Below are positions 1 through 19,658 of a stretch of 30,151 nt of DNA, piece by piece (the first letter of the stretch is position 1; the number at the start of each line of letters is the position of its first letter). This DNA comes from a virus. The translations under genes and the position numbers were made by a program. The notes below the pieces were generated by a model. It was not told the origin of the DNA, did not search any database, and worked only from the letters and a program-made list of their open reading frames with translations. The stretch spans positions 1 to 30,151 of the IMG/VR virus record IMGVR_UViG_3300034109_000055; one strand, given 5' to 3'.

Positions 1-1008
1 ATTACCAGGATCTACAGTCCATACTTGTCTGCATGTTTCACCATACTCAGCATTGACAGCAGGAACCTGTGCCATGTTAGGGCTGTGATGCGTCATACGC
101 CCTGTGACAGCACCGTTAGTGATGACCTTACCGTGTACCCTACCATCATCAGCAACGTGCTCTAGCCATGATGAGGACTGTGCTATACGCTTCTGGATAA
201 GTAGATACTCAGCCATTGCCTTAGCCTCTGGATAAGGTAGCTTAGACAGGATCACTTCATCAACCATTGGCTTACCTGTTTCAGTGAACTTCTCAGGCTT
301 CCATCCTAATGATGTCAGTCTACGTCCTATCTGATCTCTAGAGCCTGGGTTAAACACTTCAACATGATCCTTTAGTTTCTTACCTGTCTTTTCACTAACA
401 CGTTCAGTGATGATCGGTGGGAATATAGTTTGTAGGTTCTCCTCAATGTCAGATAACTTTGTCTTAAGATCAGAGACAAATGAAGTACATAGTGGTATAT
501 CAAGTTTGAATCCATGTCTTTCCTGCTGTGCAACAATAAACTGTACCTTGTGTTCAATGTCAATGCTTTGTGGTGAGAAGTCCTTCAACTCTCCGCATAG
601 TTTGCGATGAAGTTCACCAGTAAGATTGACATCTTGGATACAGTAATCAATCATCTCTTGTGTCAAAGCAGTAAAGTCTTGGAACTCAATCTTGTGATTC
701 CCTAATCTTTTCCCCCATGCTTCTAGACTGTGTCCTCCTTCGATACTGGGATTCCATAGCCTCGACAGCACGAGCGTATCTGAGGCCTTCTTGAGTGGTA
801 TCGTAATGTTCCACAATCTCCGAAGGTGGTAACCGTCGAAGCTGATTAGATTGTGTCCGATCACTGTGTCGTAATCCTCTATAAGAGGCTTTAGTGTATT
901 TGGATGAGTATGACATACCACCTCACTTGTTGTCAGATCCTTCGTGACTACGCAGAAGATAACAGTCTGTTCCATGTCTGTTTCGATGTCCAGCACTAAG
1001 CTCTTCAT
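1..1008 (-). CDS. Family A DNA polymerase, T7 gp5-like (partial, C-terminus off the window)
   Basis: Replicative DNA polymerase with proofreading. The first 336 residues are visible. The 3'-5' exonuclease shows ExoI LDIET (residues 5-9), ExoII GHNLISFD (about 54-61) and ExoIII YCIQDV further on; DTLVLSRLWNP and HSLEAWGKRLG match the T7 polymerase exonuclease domain closely. The visible part ends inside the conserved segment DGRVHG...NGAVTGRMTHHSPNMAQVP, which precedes motif A. Motifs A, B and C are beyond the edge. The ATG at 1008 is the first start after an in-frame TAG 30 bases upstream. It has no strong ribosome site and lies inside the preceding small gene, so coupled translation is likely. 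Family assignment is secure. Confidence 0.95.
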   Translation of the reverse strand, partial: MKSLVLDIETDMEQTVIFCVVTKDLTTSEVVCHTHPNTLKPLIEDYDTVIGHNLISFDGYHLRRLWNITIPLKKASDTLVLSRLWNPSIEGGHSLEAWGKRLGNHKIEFQDFTALTQEMIDYCIQDVNLTGELHRKLCGELKDFSPQSIDIEHKVQFIVAQQERHGFKLDIPLCTSFVSDLKTKLSDIEENLQTIFPPIITERVSEKTGKKLKDHVEVFNPGSRDQIGRRLTSLGWKPEKFTETGKPMVDEVILSKLPYPEAKAMAEYLLIQKRIAQSSSWLEHVADDGRVHGKVITNGAVTGRMTHHSPNMAQVPAVNAEYGETCRQVWTVDPGN

Positions 1009-1677: not shown

Positions 1678-1847
1678 TAAGGCCTCCTGTTAGCATCTTG
1701 CATAGCCTCTACGTAGTCTGATGTCTTTCTGATCTCATTGATGATCTCTTCGAACGAACAAACTACTTCACCCATTGTAGACCCTGTACGGATCTGCTGT
1801 AAAGCAAATCGTTTAGTATCCTCTTTCAAATCTTCATAAGTCTTCAT
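1677..1847 (-). CDS. Small hypothetical protein just downstream of the helicase, 56 aa
   Basis: The likely start is the ATG at 1847 (MKTYEDLKEDTKRFALQQIR), 9 bases after CAGAGG. The frame stays open further upstream, but that part is a shadow of the helicase gene. It overlaps the helicase end by 14 bases. Two predicted helices and no cysteine pairs or membrane segment. Function unknown. Confidence 0.7.
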   Translation of the reverse strand: MKTYEDLKEDTKRFALQQIRTGSTMGEVVCSFEEIINEIRKTSDYVEAMQDANRRP

Positions 1848-3441
1848 CTTGTGTGACCTCTGATAACCTTCCTGTTGTGTGGCTGTAGTAGACGTTACAG
1901 GCTGGACCTGTAATGCCATTGAATCTACTCTTAAGCACCCTAATCCTGGTGGTATTGCGTTCACGTTCATCATCATGCTGTGCATTCCTTTCCATACCGA
2001 TCACCATATCAGACAACTGTGCAATGCTACCAGATCCCCTAAGCTGACCTAGTGAAGTAGCTGCTCCTTCTTCATGGCCTTTACCATCTGGTCTCTTAAG
2101 ATGGCTGACAATCAACAGTGCAATGCCTGTCTCTTGCACAATCATCCTAAGCTTGGTCATGATCTCATCTAATGCTTTACGTTCATCGCCAACATCGCCA
2201 GAACTGACGACAATACTAATATGATCCAACACAACAAAGCTACATCCGAGTCCTTTAGCCATGAATCTGACTCTTGATAGTATGTTGTCAATTGATGTAC
2301 TCCCAAAATGATCAAAAAGATAAACCCTATTAGTGCCAAGAGTGTGCTCGAAGGCATCTCTAAACTCCTCATCAGTGTATGCTGTGTCAGGTAGATGCAG
2401 TGGCTTGTTCGCATGGATAGACATGATACCTTTAGCAGTGCGAACAGTAGACTCCTCCAAGAACATCAAGCCAATGTTGTCCTCAGTCTTACATAGGATG
2501 TGGTATACGATCTCCCTAAGCACCTGTGATTTACCCAGTCCAGATCCTGCTGTAAACGTCACCAGCTCACCTTTACGGATACCATAAGTCAAAGCATTCA
2601 TACCTTGCCAAGGATAGTCACAAGAGGCTTTAATGGCTGGTGTGTTGATCTCTTCCCAGAGCTTTGATCCTTCGATGATCCCATCAGGTACATAGACTTC
2701 AGCAGCAAACCAGTCCTGGATATACTCCTTGATCATCTCATCTTTGAGATAATCGTTAGCATCCTTGTGTGGCTGTCTGTGCTTTACTACCTTAGCCTTA
2801 GCACCGAATAGATCCGCTACTTTCGTAGCAGCTTGCTTACCAACCTCATCAGCATCAAAGCTGATAACAATGGTCTCAAAAGAGTCAAGATATTCATAGT
2901 TGTCCTTACAGTCCTTAATTGCTGATTGTGCGCCATTACGTATACTGACTACTGGATACCGCATACCGTTCATCTGATACACAGCAACAGCATCGAATTC
3001 ACCTTCAGTGATGGTAATGCTCTTACCACCTTTAGGGAATAGATGCTGTCCGAACAAAGTAGCCTTAGACCAATCACCTTTGATGGTGCAGTCAGTCTTC
3101 ATTGCATCATGTCTTACCTTGTATGCAGTTACCTTACCATCAGCATCACAGTAGGGAAAAGCCACACCACCCTCATCAGTGATCATCACACCAAAGGCTT
3201 TTAAAGCATCTCTGGAGAGGTTTCTTAGCGGTATAGACTGATACTTACCATCTAACATTGGAATCACCTTAGCAGACTTTGTATGCTTTTGCCTGAAGTT
3301 GTCATCATGTTCAGACATTTTAGTATTCGTACCACAAGCAAAACAATGTGACCAAGTCTCTCCTTTATCATTAACAGATACGGATAGTGCATCACTAGAT
3401 CCACAATCATCACAGCCAACATGCGTGGCTAAGTAGTTCAC
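1834..3441 (-). CDS. Primase-helicase, T7 gp4-like (DnaB-family helicase with Toprim primase)
   Basis: A bifunctional replisome enzyme that makes primers and unwinds DNA at the fork, 535 residues. Zinc-binding domain: Cys10/Cys13 and Cys33/Cys36. Toprim domain: TEGEFD at 145-150 and FDADEVG at 195-201. RecA-like helicase: Walker A AGSGLGKS at 298-305, an acidic FLEE at 327-330 that fits the catalytic glutamate, Walker B VVLDH at 403-407, SHLKR at 446-450 and QLRGSGSIAQLSD at 466-478, all in the order seen in T7 gp4 (566 aa). The start is GTG, 7 bases after AAAGGAG. It works with the polymerase encoded downstream in the same operon. Confidence 0.95.
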   Translation of the reverse strand: MNYLATHVGCDDCGSSDALSVSVNDKGETWSHCFACGTNTKMSEHDDNFRQKHTKSAKVIPMLDGKYQSIPLRNLSRDALKAFGVMITDEGGVAFPYCDADGKVTAYKVRHDAMKTDCTIKGDWSKATLFGQHLFPKGGKSITITEGEFDAVAVYQMNGMRYPVVSIRNGAQSAIKDCKDNYEYLDSFETIVISFDADEVGKQAATKVADLFGAKAKVVKHRQPHKDANDYLKDEMIKEYIQDWFAAEVYVPDGIIEGSKLWEEINTPAIKASCDYPWQGMNALTYGIRKGELVTFTAGSGLGKSQVLREIVYHILCKTEDNIGLMFLEESTVRTAKGIMSIHANKPLHLPDTAYTDEEFRDAFEHTLGTNRVYLFDHFGSTSIDNILSRVRFMAKGLGCSFVVLDHISIVVSSGDVGDERKALDEIMTKLRMIVQETGIALLIVSHLKRPDGKGHEEGAATSLGQLRGSGSIAQLSDMVIGMERNAQHDDERERNTTRIRVLKSRFNGITGPACNVYYSHTTGRLSEVTQDEDL

Positions 3442-8027: not shown

Positions 8028-8097
8028 TAGGATTCTGCATCTATCTGGATGAACGGACAATAATCCAGGATGAATGGTAGTGTTGTTCGAATACAAC

Positions 8098-8113
8098 AGT
8101 TTCACGTGGAACA
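8098..8113. promoter_or_regulatory. parS-like centromere site
   Basis: AGTTTCACGTGGAACA fits the chromosomal ParB-binding consensus TGTTTCACGTGAAACA at 14 of 16 positions. All bases of the generalised core (GTT, CACGTG and AAC with the standard spacing) are present. No parA or parB gene is in this window, so a host or distant phage ParB would have to bind it. Confidence 0.65.
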
Positions 8114-8150: not shown

Positions 8151-8182
8151 CATTGTAGGTATCATTGTAGGTATCATTGTAG
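8151..8182. repeat. 12-bp tandem repeats with CATTGTAG core
   Basis: CATTGTAGGTAT occurs twice in tandem (8151-8162, 8163-8174), followed by a partial third copy (8175-8182). The CATTGTAG core also appears at 6474-6481 near the HNH promoter and at 8636-8643 inside a palindrome. Iteron or operator function is possible. Confidence 0.8.
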
Positions 8183-8236
8183 GGTGCTACACCGATACTC
8201 TTTTCCCCTGCACAGCCTACACAGCTACCAACATAG

Positions 8237-8289
8237 TTATCCACAGGTTACTAACAGGTTATCCACAGATAACATCATAGTTATCCACA
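8237..8289 (+). promoter_or_regulatory. Cluster of three perfect DnaA boxes
   Basis: TTATCCACA occurs at 8237-8245, 8259-8267 and 8281-8289, all in the same orientation and exactly 22 bp apart (about two helical turns). A fourth weaker box, TTATCAACA, lies at 8292-8300. This is the standard bacterial DnaA recognition sequence, so host DnaA loading is plausible. Confidence 0.8.
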
Positions 8290-8302
8290 GGTTATCAACA
8301 TA

Positions 8303-8315
8303 GGGGGGGAGGGGG
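8303..8315 (+). other. G-tract next to the DnaA boxes
   Basis: Seven G, one A, five G, directly after the DnaA cluster. It may affect strand opening or fork movement, or form a two-molecule G-quadruplex. There are too few separate G-runs for a classical intramolecular quadruplex. Confidence 0.5.
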
Positions 8316-8525
8316 TAGAGTTGTATAGTAAATTGTTGTGGTGCTACCTAGACACAAAAAAGAGCAAAATAGACAATGCTAATGATAATCCATTACTAAT
8401 AAGAAATCTCTTTAGAATCAATGAGTTAACTATATTGCCTCTGCGGAGCCTCTGACACCATGTTAATGGAGTCCCGCTGAAGCCTAGAAAGTTGGTAGAA
8501 TCTGCACTGAATATGAAGAAATAAC

Positions 8526-8554
8526 TTGACAAACTCTGAAAAATATGCTACAAT
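8526..8554 (+). promoter_or_regulatory. Rightward promoter for the structural genes
   Basis: Perfect TTGACA (8526-8531), 17-base spacer, TACAAT (8549-8554, five of six). Start near 8561, leaving a 147-base leader before the small terminase gene. The leader holds the palindrome CTACATTGTAG (8633-8643) and a hairpin (8673-8686), both possible control points. It shares ACTTGACAA with the promoters at 4934 and 12402. Confidence 0.8.
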
Positions 8555-8686: not shown

Positions 8687-8707
8687 AGAAACTATATAGA
8701 GGTAGTG

Positions 8708-9196
8708 ATGTCTGAAATTAAAACTGAAGATGTAGTATCTGATCTTTGTTCGCTACCTTCATCGGTCAGCCAGGATGTTGTGGCAGTCAATGAAGAAAAG
8801 AAAGTGCCTGCTAAAAAAAGAAAAAGAGGAAGACCAAAGAAGGAAGAGGTACAGAAGTACATCAAAAGAGCTAAAAGAGGACGTCCTCCTGGTGAAGCAG
8901 CAAGGATTAAAGAACTAACAGCTTCGCTGTTGCTGACACACTCACAGGCCATTATCCGTAAGATTGTTCACAAAGCATTGAATGATGAGGATAAGGATCA
9001 GATGGCAGCACTGAAGCTGTGTGTTGATAGGATGTTGCCAGTATCTTATTTTGAAGAAAAAGGTGTTGGAGGAGGCTCTAGAGCCATTACCATCAACATC
9101 ACTGGAGTGAATGATAATCCAGTAGAAATGATTGAGCATGAACCTGTTGAGGTAGAAACCACGTTGATTGATTACGAAGAAGAAGACGATGAGTAA
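8708..9196 (+). CDS. Probable small terminase subunit with two AT-hooks
   Basis: A 162-residue protein directly upstream of, and overlapping, the large terminase gene, the usual place for the DNA-recognition subunit. Start chosen at the ATG at 8708, with AGAGG 5 bases upstream; a GTG lies one codon earlier. Residues about 36-60 contain two AT-hook-like cores, KRGRPKK and KRGRPPG, followed by a helical segment ARIKELTASLLLTHSQAI and an acidic tail DYEEEDDE. AT-hooks bind the minor groove of AT-rich DNA. The terminase role rests on position and general layout; no HTH was clearly seen. Confidence 0.65.
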   Translation: MSEIKTEDVVSDLCSLPSSVSQDVVAVNEEKKVPAKKRKRGRPKKEEVQKYIKRAKRGRPPGEAARIKELTASLLLTHSQAIIRKIVHKALNDEDKDQMAALKLCVDRMLPVSYFEEKGVGGGSRAITINITGVNDNPVEMIEHEPVEVETTLIDYEEEDDE

Positions 9197-10445
9197 TTTG
9201 AATGTAGCTCTTCTTCCGTGGCAGCAGGACGTTTTTAAAGATCCAGCAAGGTTTAAGATCATCGCTGCTGGTAGACGTACAGGTAAATCTAGGTTAGCAG
9301 CTTGGACACTGATCATAGAGGCACTACAGACTGAGAAGGGTCATGTTTGGTATGTAGCACCTACACAGGGACAAGCTAGAGATATTATGTGGTCTACGCT
9401 GTTAGAGCTAGGTCATACAGTCATTAAAGGTAGTCATGTTAACAATATGCAGATTACCTTAGTCAATGGTGCAATGATCTCACTAAAGGGTGCTGATAGA
9501 CCAGAGACAATGCGTGGTGTCAGCTTAAAGTATTTAGTGATGGACGAATACGCTGATATGAAGCCACAAGTGTTCGAACAGATCTTAAGACCTGCTTTAG
9601 CGGATCAGAAGGGTAGAGCAATGTTCATTGGTACGCCAATGGGTAGAAACCACTTCTATGAACTGTATAGGCTAGGTGATAGTGGTAAGGATAAGGATTA
9701 CAAGGCATGGCACTTCACTAGCTTTGATAATCCATTGTTAGATCCAGCAGAGATTGAAGCTGCTAAAGGTTCAATGTCTAGCTTTGCTTTCAGACAAGAG
9801 TTTATGGCTTCGTTTGAAGCAGCACAGAGTGATGTGTTTAAACATGACTGGATCATTGTTAGTGGAGATGAGCCTGATGAAGGTAGTTACTTTATGGCTG
9901 TGGATCTCTGTGGTTTTACAGATGCTACGCAAACGAATAAGCCTAAGAATACAAGACTGGATGAGACAGCGATAGCAGTTGTTAAAGTGAACACCAGAGG
10001 CTGGTGGGTTGCTGACATACTACATGGTAGATGGGATGTCCGAGAGACAGCAGTACGTATTCTTAAGACTGCAAAGGACTACAACGTCACTTGTTTAGGA
10101 ATAGAGAAAGGTGCACTGAAGAATGCAGTGATGCCTTACATGCATGACATTATGCGTAGAACTGGATTCTTTCCTAGGATTGATGAACTAACACACGGTA
10201 ATAAGAAGAAAGTAGATAGGATTGTTTGGTCACTACAGGGTAGATTTGAGCATGGAAGGATTGTTCTTAATGAAGGTTCATGGAACAGCGTCTTTATTGA
10301 CCAGCTAATGCAGTTTCCTGACTCAAAGACTCATGATGATTTGATTGATGCACTTAGCTATATTGACCAGATACAGACTGCTAGTTGGTCACAATCAATC
10401 GATGAAGAAGAGTATGAAGTTATGGATGACGTAGCAGGCTACTAA
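9189..10445 (+). CDS. terL: Large terminase subunit (packaging ATPase/nuclease)
   Basis: Motor that cuts and pumps DNA into the prohead, 418 residues. ATPase: adenine-motif LLPWQQDV (8-15), Walker A GRRTGKS (28-34), Walker B YLVMDE (115-120) with Glu120 as the catalytic carboxylate, coupling motif IGTPMGRN (147-154). RNase H-like nuclease: FMAVDL (D239), IEKG around 305-308 and HDDLIDAL (382-389), the expected three acidic clusters. The start is the ATG at 9189, overlapping the upstream stop by 8 bases; an earlier TTG in frame lies inside the small subunit gene. Compact but complete for the family. Confidence 0.95.
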   Translation: MSNLNVALLPWQQDVFKDPARFKIIAAGRRTGKSRLAAWTLIIEALQTEKGHVWYVAPTQGQARDIMWSTLLELGHTVIKGSHVNNMQITLVNGAMISLKGADRPETMRGVSLKYLVMDEYADMKPQVFEQILRPALADQKGRAMFIGTPMGRNHFYELYRLGDSGKDKDYKAWHFTSFDNPLLDPAEIEAAKGSMSSFAFRQEFMASFEAAQSDVFKHDWIIVSGDEPDEGSYFMAVDLCGFTDATQTNKPKNTRLDETAIAVVKVNTRGWWVADILHGRWDVRETAVRILKTAKDYNVTCLGIEKGALKNAVMPYMHDIMRRTGFFPRIDELTHGNKKKVDRIVWSLQGRFEHGRIVLNEGSWNSVFIDQLMQFPDSKTHDDLIDALSYIDQIQTASWSQSIDEEEYEVMDDVAGY

Positions 10446-17059: not shown

Positions 17060-17638
17060 ATGTCTGCTATTAAAGTTCAAGGAAATGCTAGCGGTACTGG
17101 TACACACACGATTCAGTCCGCTAATACTAACTCTAACCGTACTGCTACGTTGCCTGATGCGGATGGTACGCTCATCGTGGCAGATGCTGCTAATACCTTT
17201 ACAGGTACGCAGACTTTTGCTGGATCAAGTAGTGCCTTAGCAATGATCTTAAATGACGTTGCTGAGACAACAACAATATCAGCAACAGCAGCCACAGGTA
17301 CGATTAACTATGATGTAACAACACAATCAGTGTTGTACTACACCAGCAATGCCTCTGCTAACTGGACTGTAAACTTCAGAGCATCTGCTGGTACATCATT
17401 GAATACTGCGATGTCTACAGGACAAACACTTACTGTTGTCTTCTTAGTTACTCAAGGATCTACAGCTTATTACAACAGTGCTGTGCAGGTTGATGGTTCA
17501 TCAGTAACACCTAAATGGCAGCAAGGTACAGCTCCATCTGCAGGTAACGCATCCAGTATTGATGCTTATGTATACAGTATTGTAAAGACAGGTAACGCAG
17601 CCTTTACTATCTTTGCATCACAAACTAAGTTCGCTTAA
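17060..17638 (+). CDS. Fibre-associated structural protein
   Basis: A 192-residue protein. The N-terminus MSAIKVQGNASGTGTHTIQS, then NSNRTATLPDADGTLIVADA, is a segment common in fibre proteins of marine and freshwater phages, here followed by a beta-rich domain (TISATAATGTINYDVTTQSV... YVYSIVKTGNAAFTIFASQT). Thr/Ser/Ala/Asn-rich, few charged residues. AGGATAAAAA precedes the ATG. It is probably a short fibre or fibre tip; partner unknown. Confidence 0.75.
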   Translation: MSAIKVQGNASGTGTHTIQSANTNSNRTATLPDADGTLIVADAANTFTGTQTFAGSSSALAMILNDVAETTTISATAATGTINYDVTTQSVLYYTSNASANWTVNFRASAGTSLNTAMSTGQTLTVVFLVTQGSTAYYNSAVQVDGSSVTPKWQQGTAPSAGNASSIDAYVYSIVKTGNAAFTIFASQTKFA

Positions 17639-17642
17639 TACC

Positions 17643-19658
17643 ATGCCTATCTTAACTACATTAGGTGCTGCTTGTGCTAGAGCCTGGGGTTTTACCTCAG
17701 GTTTAGTCAAAGACCAGTACTTTAACTTAACAACCTTGCTCCTCCCAGGCAACGGCACTGACGGAAAACAAAACCGTACTTTCAAAGACAGTTCAGTCAA
17801 TGACTTCTTAATCACGCCTAACGGCAACACAACGCAGGGTACGTTCTCGCCGTTCAGCCAGACTGGGTGGGGGAATTATTTCAATGGTAGTTCTTATTTG
17901 ACATCATCACATCCAGCGCTTAATGCAACTTTCACAATTGAAGCATGGATTTATAGAACTTCTGGCAGTGCTCTCCAAAGTATTATTTTTCTCAATGCTG
18001 GAGGCAATAGCGGTGTTATCGTTTACATTGATGCTTCAAATTATCTAACTGTTACGGACGGAAGCACCGGCCAATCAGCATTTAGTAATTTGACCGTTCC
18101 GATTAACTCATGGACACATATCGCAGTGGTGCGTAGTGGTGGAACAACAACCGGTTATGTAAACGGTACGGTTGCTGGTTCACATACATTTACACCTAGC
18201 ACTGTTAATGCTGCAACCATAGCCAGATATTCAGCCGCAAGTCCTCTTTATTTTCCAGGCTACGTTTCAAATGTTCGTGTAGTCAACGGAACTGCCGTGT
18301 ATACAGGAGCCTTTACACCATCAACAGTACCATTAACGGCAATCACCAACACATCGCTTCTCACTTGCCAATCTAACCGCTTTATAGATAACAGCTCTAG
18401 CCCATTAACCATTACAGCCAACGGCTCACCCTCCGTCACCCCCTTCTCCCCCTTCGCCCCTACACAGTCCTACTCAGCAGCAGCAGTGGGTGGTAGCGGG
18501 TATTTCGATGGGAATAGTGACTACCTGAGCGTTGCTAACCAAACTGCACTGCAACTCAGCGGTAGTCAATTTACGATTGAGGGTTGGTTTTACTTTACAA
18601 CGTCTGGAGTTGATAACTACATTGTTGTTCAGTCATCAGCACTAGCAGATGCAAACGTCAACTGGTTGGTAAGAGTTACGTCAGGAAATAAACTTCGTGT
18701 ATTGCTAATGACTTCAGGAGCAACGGCTGTTAGTTTTGATGGTTCAACAACTGTTACAGCAAACTCATGGCATCACTTTGCAGCAACTTGTGACGGAACT
18801 GGAGCGGGGTCAAATGTGCGTTCATGGCTTGATGGTGTTTACCAAGGCGGCACAACAGTAAACACGGCAAACATAAACACAAACTCAGCGGCGACTCAAA
18901 TTGGTGGATGGAGTTTTGCTTCGTCTTATTCAACTGGGTATGTTAGTAATTTGCGAATCTTAAAAGGTACTGCGCTTTACACAGGAACGTCTGACATTGC
19001 CGTCCCCACCGCACCACTCACCGACATCACCAACACCTCCCTCCTCCTCAACTTCACCAACGCTGGCGTTGTCGATGCCACTGCCAAGAATGTGCTGGAG
19101 ACTGTTGGGAATGCTCAGATCAGCACAACACAGAGCAAGTGGGGTGGTGGGAGTATTAGTTTTGATGGGACGGGTGATTACTTAAAAGCCCCGGATGATG
19201 TTAACTGGGATCTAGGCTCTTCTAACTTTACTATAGAGGCTTGGGTTTATCCAACGGCATCGCCGCTACAACCTATTTTAATTGGCCAGTGGACATCTTC
19301 GTACGCTTGGTTACTAACTTTATCTAATGATTCAAACAGATATTTAAGAGGGATTCTGTATAACGGTTCTTTCAATGATTATGTTAGTACGTCACCTTTA
19401 CAACTTAATAATTGGAATCATTGTGCGATGGTTCGTGAAAGCAACACAGTAAGTTTGTATCTAAATGGATCTCGTGTTTACACAACAACATTTACAGGTT
19501 CAGTATCAACTTCAACGTCAGCCGTTACAGTTGGAGCAAACGCAAGTGGTGCAGATCCTTTCACTGGTTATATGGATGACGTAAGAATTACTAAAGGTCT
19601 TGCTCGGTACACAGGCAGCACCTATACCACGCCAACAGCACCCTTCCCAGTCCAGTGA
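17643..19658 (+). CDS. Adhesin with three LamG/lectin-like domains
   Basis: A 671-residue protein. After an N-terminal attachment region (FKDSSVNDFLITPNGNTTQG near 47-66), three concanavalin-like jellyroll units occur at about 80-250, 285-460 and 505-665. Each has FTIEAWIY or FTIEGWFYF, a SWTHIAVVR/SWHHFAAT/NWNHCAMVR strand, and an ending of the type GYVSNVRVVNGTAVYTG. Such domains bind carbohydrates, so this is a likely receptor-binding protein. Linkers around 18430-18470 and 19003-19070 are C-rich and unlike the AT-rich domains, which suggests assembly by recombination. The ATG at 17643 is used; the frame is open upstream without a good start. Confidence 0.85.
   Translation: MPILTTLGAACARAWGFTSGLVKDQYFNLTTLLLPGNGTDGKQNRTFKDSSVNDFLITPNGNTTQGTFSPFSQTGWGNYFNGSSYLTSSHPALNATFTIEAWIYRTSGSALQSIIFLNAGGNSGVIVYIDASNYLTVTDGSTGQSAFSNLTVPINSWTHIAVVRSGGTTTGYVNGTVAGSHTFTPSTVNAATIARYSAASPLYFPGYVSNVRVVNGTAVYTGAFTPSTVPLTAITNTSLLTCQSNRFIDNSSSPLTITANGSPSVTPFSPFAPTQSYSAAAVGGSGYFDGNSDYLSVANQTALQLSGSQFTIEGWFYFTTSGVDNYIVVQSSALADANVNWLVRVTSGNKLRVLLMTSGATAVSFDGSTTVTANSWHHFAATCDGTGAGSNVRSWLDGVYQGGTTVNTANINTNSAATQIGGWSFASSYSTGYVSNLRILKGTALYTGTSDIAVPTAPLTDITNTSLLLNFTNAGVVDATAKNVLETVGNAQISTTQSKWGGGSISFDGTGDYLKAPDDVNWDLGSSNFTIEAWVYPTASPLQPILIGQWTSSYAWLLTLSNDSNRYLRGILYNGSFNDYVSTSPLQLNNWNHCAMVRESNTVSLYLNGSRVYTTTFTGSVSTSTSAVTVGANASGADPFTGYMDDVRITKGLARYTGSTYTTPTAPFPVQ

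Follow-up and report, generated by a model that had tools for sequence, protein, structure and literature searches.

What are three perfect DnaA boxes doing in the genome of a phage that encodes its own DNA polymerase? The boxes (TTATCCACA) lie on the same strand at a spacing of exactly 22 bp and are followed by a weaker fourth box (TTATCAACA, one mismatch), as a first-pass annotation of the locus had described, and that annotation went on to propose that replication of the phage starts here in dependence on host DnaA. The DNA that we analysed, referred to below as the window, is an IMG/VR virus record of 30,151 bp with 43% G+C, in which the array occupies a non-coding gap with leftward early genes on one side and rightward terS and terL on the other (Table 1).

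The T7-type DNA polymerase and primase-helicase that the first-pass annotation had recognised are both present in the leftward block, the former as a family A enzyme, together with a DNA methyltransferase. In fuller relatives (37-42 kb), the leftward block adds ribonucleotide reductase, ThyX, a RusA-like resolvase and a 5'-3' exonuclease. The rightward genes of the window include terL and those for portal, major head protein, tail fibre and amidase; a 681-aa protein at 17613-19655 carries concanavalin A-like lectin (Laminin_G_3) domains and is likely adsorption-related. We found no close cultured phage, the identity of terL, portal and head protein to cultured phages being below 50% and mostly over partial-length matches, and the best cultured-phage identity of the primase-helicase was 53%. 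A phage RNA polymerase had been reported as absent, and none was seen in the window or in the fuller relatives, where the large proteins examined were either assigned otherwise or stayed below the Pfam cut-off; the profile search for a single-subunit RNA polymerase (PF00940), however, which gave no match in 8 records, was equally silent on the control genomes. The phage is podovirus-like and apparently lacks an RNA polymerase of its own. No integrase was found in it by a search that was positive on its control, a search of bacterial genomes with terL returned only two contigs, from unrelated MAGs, and yielded no prophage or host assignment, and Rfam and tRNA scans found nothing.

Table 1. Features of the array, the predicted terminal repeat and the flanking genes in the window
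Feature	Position	Strand	Remark
Family A DNA polymerase (partial)	1..1008	-	Leftward block
Primase-helicase	1834..3441	-	Leftward block
parS-like site AGTTTCACGTGGAACA	8098..8113		Just left of the slot
Inner-edge element TAGGGTGCTACACCGAT	8180..8196	+	Counterpart of A/TAGGGACACAGAGAC, inner edge of T7-like repeats
Predicted direct terminal repeat, 165 bp	8180..8344	.	Encloses the array; inferred from its edges
Perfect DnaA box 1 TTATCCACA	8237..8245	+	
Degenerate box TTACTAACA	8248..8256	+	Same 11-bp register as the perfect boxes
Perfect DnaA box 2 TTATCCACA	8259..8267	+	
Perfect DnaA box 3 TTATCCACA	8281..8289	+	
Weak DnaA box TTATCAACA	8292..8300	+	1 mismatch
G-run GGGGGGGAGGGGG	8303..8315	+	Conserved; contains GGGNAGGG; bounds the swappable slot on the right
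Outer-edge element TACCTAGACACAAAAAAG	8345..8362	+	Counterpart of TACCCAYTCAGA, just outside mapped T7-like repeats
Sigma-70-type promoter TTGACA-17-TACAAT	8526..8554	+	Faces terS/terL
Small terminase subunit candidate (terS)	8705..9196	+	Assigned by position, directly upstream of terL; AT-hook-like
Terminase large subunit (terL)	9168..10445	+	

The three perfect boxes are the only ones in the whole window. Dinucleotide shuffles of the window contained 0.31 perfect boxes on average and none of 100 shuffles reached three; the array is far beyond chance. For the comparison with relatives, these were collected via terL and the gene upstream of terL, and loci obtained from box searches were kept out of the tests. 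We defined a cassette as 300 bp to the left and 60 bp to the right of a conserved G-run, and 101 distinct cassettes were obtained. Perfect DnaA boxes occurred in 29 of these, always at least two in each and on either strand, and their total of 115 matches compared with 0-1 for column-permuted decoys; 191 kb of other upstream sequence held a single match. The helical phasing proposed for the window, where the boxes share an 11-bp register, was borne out in the relatives, as 76% of adjacent same-strand spacings deviated by no more than 1 from a multiple of 11 (n = 80; a uniform distribution would give 27%). When IMG/VR was scanned by box triplets alone, 40 of the 119 loci listed belonged to the window's phage family, and in a clustered-triplet control a permuted box gave 10 loci versus at least 120 for the real box. 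Three viral loci outside the family carry DnaA boxes spaced by 11-12 bp directly 5' of sigma-70 promoter-like sequence. Selection on the perfect phased boxes is supported, and because the array is beyond chance and recurs, phased and in either orientation, across the family, host DnaA very likely binds it and would do so cooperatively.

Perfect boxes are absent from 72 of the 101 distinct cassettes, and the slot to the left of the G-run holds wholly different arrays in phages with 95-100% identical terS, namely forward DnaA boxes, AACTTACG/ATCTTGC repeats, TTGTC-N8-GACAA dyads, AAATGAGAATCATTCTCAAT or TTCATCGGCTAGACTATGCC repeats. A sister clade (terS about 80% identical) has reverse DnaA boxes as well as other arrays. 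Across three array types the primase-helicase is 97-99% identical, and the 9 kb to the left contain no gene that varies with the array type as a cognate DNA-binding gene would.

Several of the alternative arrays resemble binding sites of other host proteins. The AAATGAGAATCATTCTCAAT arrays, which we take to be Fur-box-like, replace DnaA boxes to the left of the G-run in six loci. Distant clades carry TGGCAY-N5-TTGCW arrays (51 matches in 16 cassettes; decoys 0-3), similar to sigma-54 -24/-12 elements, and six loci show three to nine such sites left of the G-run, an odd layout for promoters. Distant clades also carry NtrC-like sites (22 matches; decoys 0-2); at two loci, NtrC-like palindromes (GCACCACTTTGGTGC) lie next to DnaA boxes upstream of terL. 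LexA-like sites gave 13 matches in the cassettes, a weak result given that a single permuted decoy yielded as many as 20. The AACTTACG/ATCTTGC repeats and TTGTC-N8-GACAA dyads, seen left of the G-run in four loci, fit no regulator known to us. As a plasmid iteron, the AACTTACG allele found matches at chance level only, no clear enrichment in the slot was obtained for matS, the SlmA site, Tus/Ter, dif, the Noc site, CRP, FNR, ArcA or PurR, and IHF-like matches fell outside the slot. The KOPS motif GGGNAGGG was present in 101 of 101 cassettes, which is not evidence in its favour because the cassettes were selected by the G-run that contains it.

Just beyond the left side of the slot lies a 16-bp palindrome, AGTTTCACGTGGAACA, which is close to chromosomal parS (TGTTTCACGTGAAACA) and fits the degenerate consensus TGTTYCACGTGRAACA at 15 of 16 positions (the parS consensus is documented in PMC5450999 and PMC4333373). 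It occurs once per locus, at a fixed place, in 36 of the 101 cassettes, all of which belong to the window's clade of 54; the rest of the upstream sequence had no copy, and decoys gave none. In contrast to chromosomal systems, no phage ParB (PF02195) was detected in 8 records by a search whose control was positive in 10 genomes, so that the partner would be host ParB. A conserved imperfect dyad (TGTTGTTCGAATACAACA, 8081-8098) adjoins the parS-like site and may be an operator.

The borders of the slot resemble mapped ends of T7-like genomes. As references we used terminal repeats annotated in KpV767, KlebP_144 and SH1 and those checked by Sanger primer walking in Oda and its set (PMC10438801). 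At the outer edge of the reference repeats, a G-run is followed by 25 nt ending in TGAGA, the cut and then TACCCAYTCAGA or a variant, and the inner edge reads A/TAGGGACACAGAGAC. In the window's family, the G-run is followed by 23-29 nt and a TACCYRCTCAGA-like sequence on the outside, with TAGGGTGCT (TAGGG) on the inner side. The outer-edge match was strong in clade d (9.25/12 versus a permuted mean of 6.55, reached by 0 of 500 permutations, with a modal spacing of 25 nt), moderate in clade e (4 of 500) and weak in the clade to which the window belongs (30 of 500, with a spacing of 29 rather than 25), although these permutation figures overstate the support because members of a clade are related and not independent. 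A TAGGGTGCT-like inner edge was found in 38 of the 101 cassettes versus a decoy mean of 2.7 and lies at position 8180 in the window. The predicted repeat has a family median length of about 181-190 bp, compared with 180-231 bp annotated in T7-like phages. Within a given phage, the left edge element resembled the right one only a little more than shuffles did (mean 10.4/16 versus 9.4/16), and contig ends showed no pile-up at the predicted cut. On the resemblance of its edges to those mapped in T7-like phages, the slot probably lies in the repeated end of the genome, and a terminal repeat at about 8180-8344 that encloses the array is a moderately supported prediction.

Under the proposed replication start, DnaA would open the duplex next to the array, and this is where helicase and polymerase of the phage would load. 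The strong boxes in helical register with weaker sites interspersed, the AT-rich DNA to the right of the array and the lack of a recognised initiator gene all speak for an origin. The GC-skew check that had been suggested did place a minimum near the array, no more than about 2 kb from terL in 13 of the 14 genomes examined, but skew cannot decide the matter because transcription diverges at the same gap and accounts for the minimum equally well. Fur-like and sigma-54-like sites, moreover, are not initiator sites, and DnaA arrays are also found in or near the terminal repeats of phages with an RNA polymerase gene of their own. Since relatives drop the boxes and fill the same slot with other arrays yet keep their replication proteins, a need for DnaA at this site is unlikely; the case for an origin is weak, we consider it quite improbable, and the array is one of several interchangeable arrays, apparently not a dedicated origin. 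Alternatively, array-bound DnaA could tune the divergent early and late promoters so that their output follows the cell-cycle state of the host, for which the place of the array between divergent blocks, the strong sigma-70-type promoter facing terS and the promoter-proximal DnaA arrays of some unrelated viral loci might be cited. Control of transcription nevertheless strikes us as decidedly improbable, given that the last box lies about 225 bp from the rightward promoter, that the orientation and distance of the arrays vary and that the array type is swapped while this promoter stays unchanged.

The strongest rival to our own interpretation is titration, which fits the same anatomy. Near-consensus sites would act as decoys that soak up DnaA, Fur, sigma-54 holoenzyme, LexA or ParB as the phage genome multiplies, thereby disturbing host replication or regulation. 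The sites are near-consensus and present in several copies, with no set orientation or distance, which would suit a decoy, as would the arrays of relatives whose matches to various host factors (DnaA, sigma-54 and NtrC-like) greatly exceed those of permuted decoys, the Fur-like arrays of several cassettes, the single parS-like site per locus and the LexA-like matches, even if one permuted decoy outnumbered the latter. On the other hand, each genome has no more than 3-7 sites, some of the alleles (AACTTACG repeats and TTGTC-N8-GACAA dyads) fit no regulator known to us, and titration leaves the fixed place at terminal-repeat-like edges unexplained; we regard it as rather unlikely. Tandem slippage in a non-coding gap might also yield box-like units by accident, and the slot is indeed hypervariable and made of tandem units of about 11 bp, but many separate cassettes contain perfect boxes, in both orientations, while permuted boxes stay near zero, and such neutral turnover is very hard to credit.

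We tentatively favour, with somewhat less than even confidence, the interpretation that the boxes are the DnaA version of a swappable phased array for host proteins, which lies in the predicted terminal repeat and acts at the DNA end. It builds on the boxes themselves, their phasing and recurrence, the exchange of arrays and the resemblance of the edges, all of which were observed directly. With the array only about 45-108 bp from the predicted genome end, a bound protein would most likely act on the end itself. It might hold or pause the entering DNA near the membrane, as has been proposed for the injection stop region of T5, or it might shield the ends and help to process them during concatemer resolution, and the remaining array types would serve the same purpose via other proteins. 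Several array types without a recognised protein speak against such a terminal-repeat role, as do a terminase unlike that of T7, the absence of a contig-end pile-up at the predicted cut and the weak outer-edge match in the window's clade. It is conceivable, although we lean against it, that the lineage more generally keeps a dedicated, exchangeable module for the capture of host proteins in its terminal repeat, with DnaA, Fur and others swapped in, sigma-54/NtrC-like sites in distant phages and parS beside the module in many close relatives, the captured proteins either holding or ratcheting incoming DNA or being titrated off the chromosome. The repeat arrays at the ends of T7- and T5-type phages have been without a clear function, which becomes open to testing now that a large uncultured family is seen to swap such arrays, with several types that match DNA-binding proteins of the host. 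Our results also call for caution, as DnaA-box clusters that origin-finding software calls phage origins may be terminal elements.

Like a bacterial oriC, the window combines perfect R-type boxes in helical register with weaker sites in between, but relatives that share its replication proteins do not keep its boxes. The DnaA arrays of cultured phages often lie in or near genome ends. In Berlinvirus P483 and nasanit and in Klebsiella 140f, they occupy the stretch from gp19 to gp0.3 or to the first early genes, near-boxes of Siara fall inside its PhageTerm repeat, and several T5-like box matches coincide with PhageTerm or DTR features. In T7, the short repeats SRL and SRR adjoin the terminal repeat. 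The T7-like phages (Studiervirinae) and the window's family share regular short-repeat arrays where late and early genes meet, which in Berlinvirus P483 and nasanit and in 140f hold DnaA boxes. The family also resembles them in a G-run some 25 nt away from the predicted outer edge, in putative edges of TACCYRCTCAGA type outside and TAGGG type inside and in a predicted repeat of similar length. However, the terminase of the window belongs to a different family, terS and terL are transcribed away from the junction, arrays are swapped between near-identical phages, no phage RNA polymerase was found, and the ends are predicted from sequence whereas those of T7-like phages are mapped. The injection stop signal of T5 and its relatives, described as containing repeats, palindromes and DnaA boxes, has been proposed to interact with host components (PMC13250531), and the region in the window is likewise non-coding with repeats, palindromes and DnaA boxes. 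The T5 repeat, by contrast, measures about 9-10 kb, while the window's array would lie within little more than 100 bp of the end, and the T5 signal controls a two-step transfer of DNA. Short-repeat arrays at phage termini were already known, as were DnaA boxes close to the ends of T5. The literature searched, which included few subscription journals, contained no report of near-identical phages that swap whole arrays, with several types resembling sites of different host proteins.
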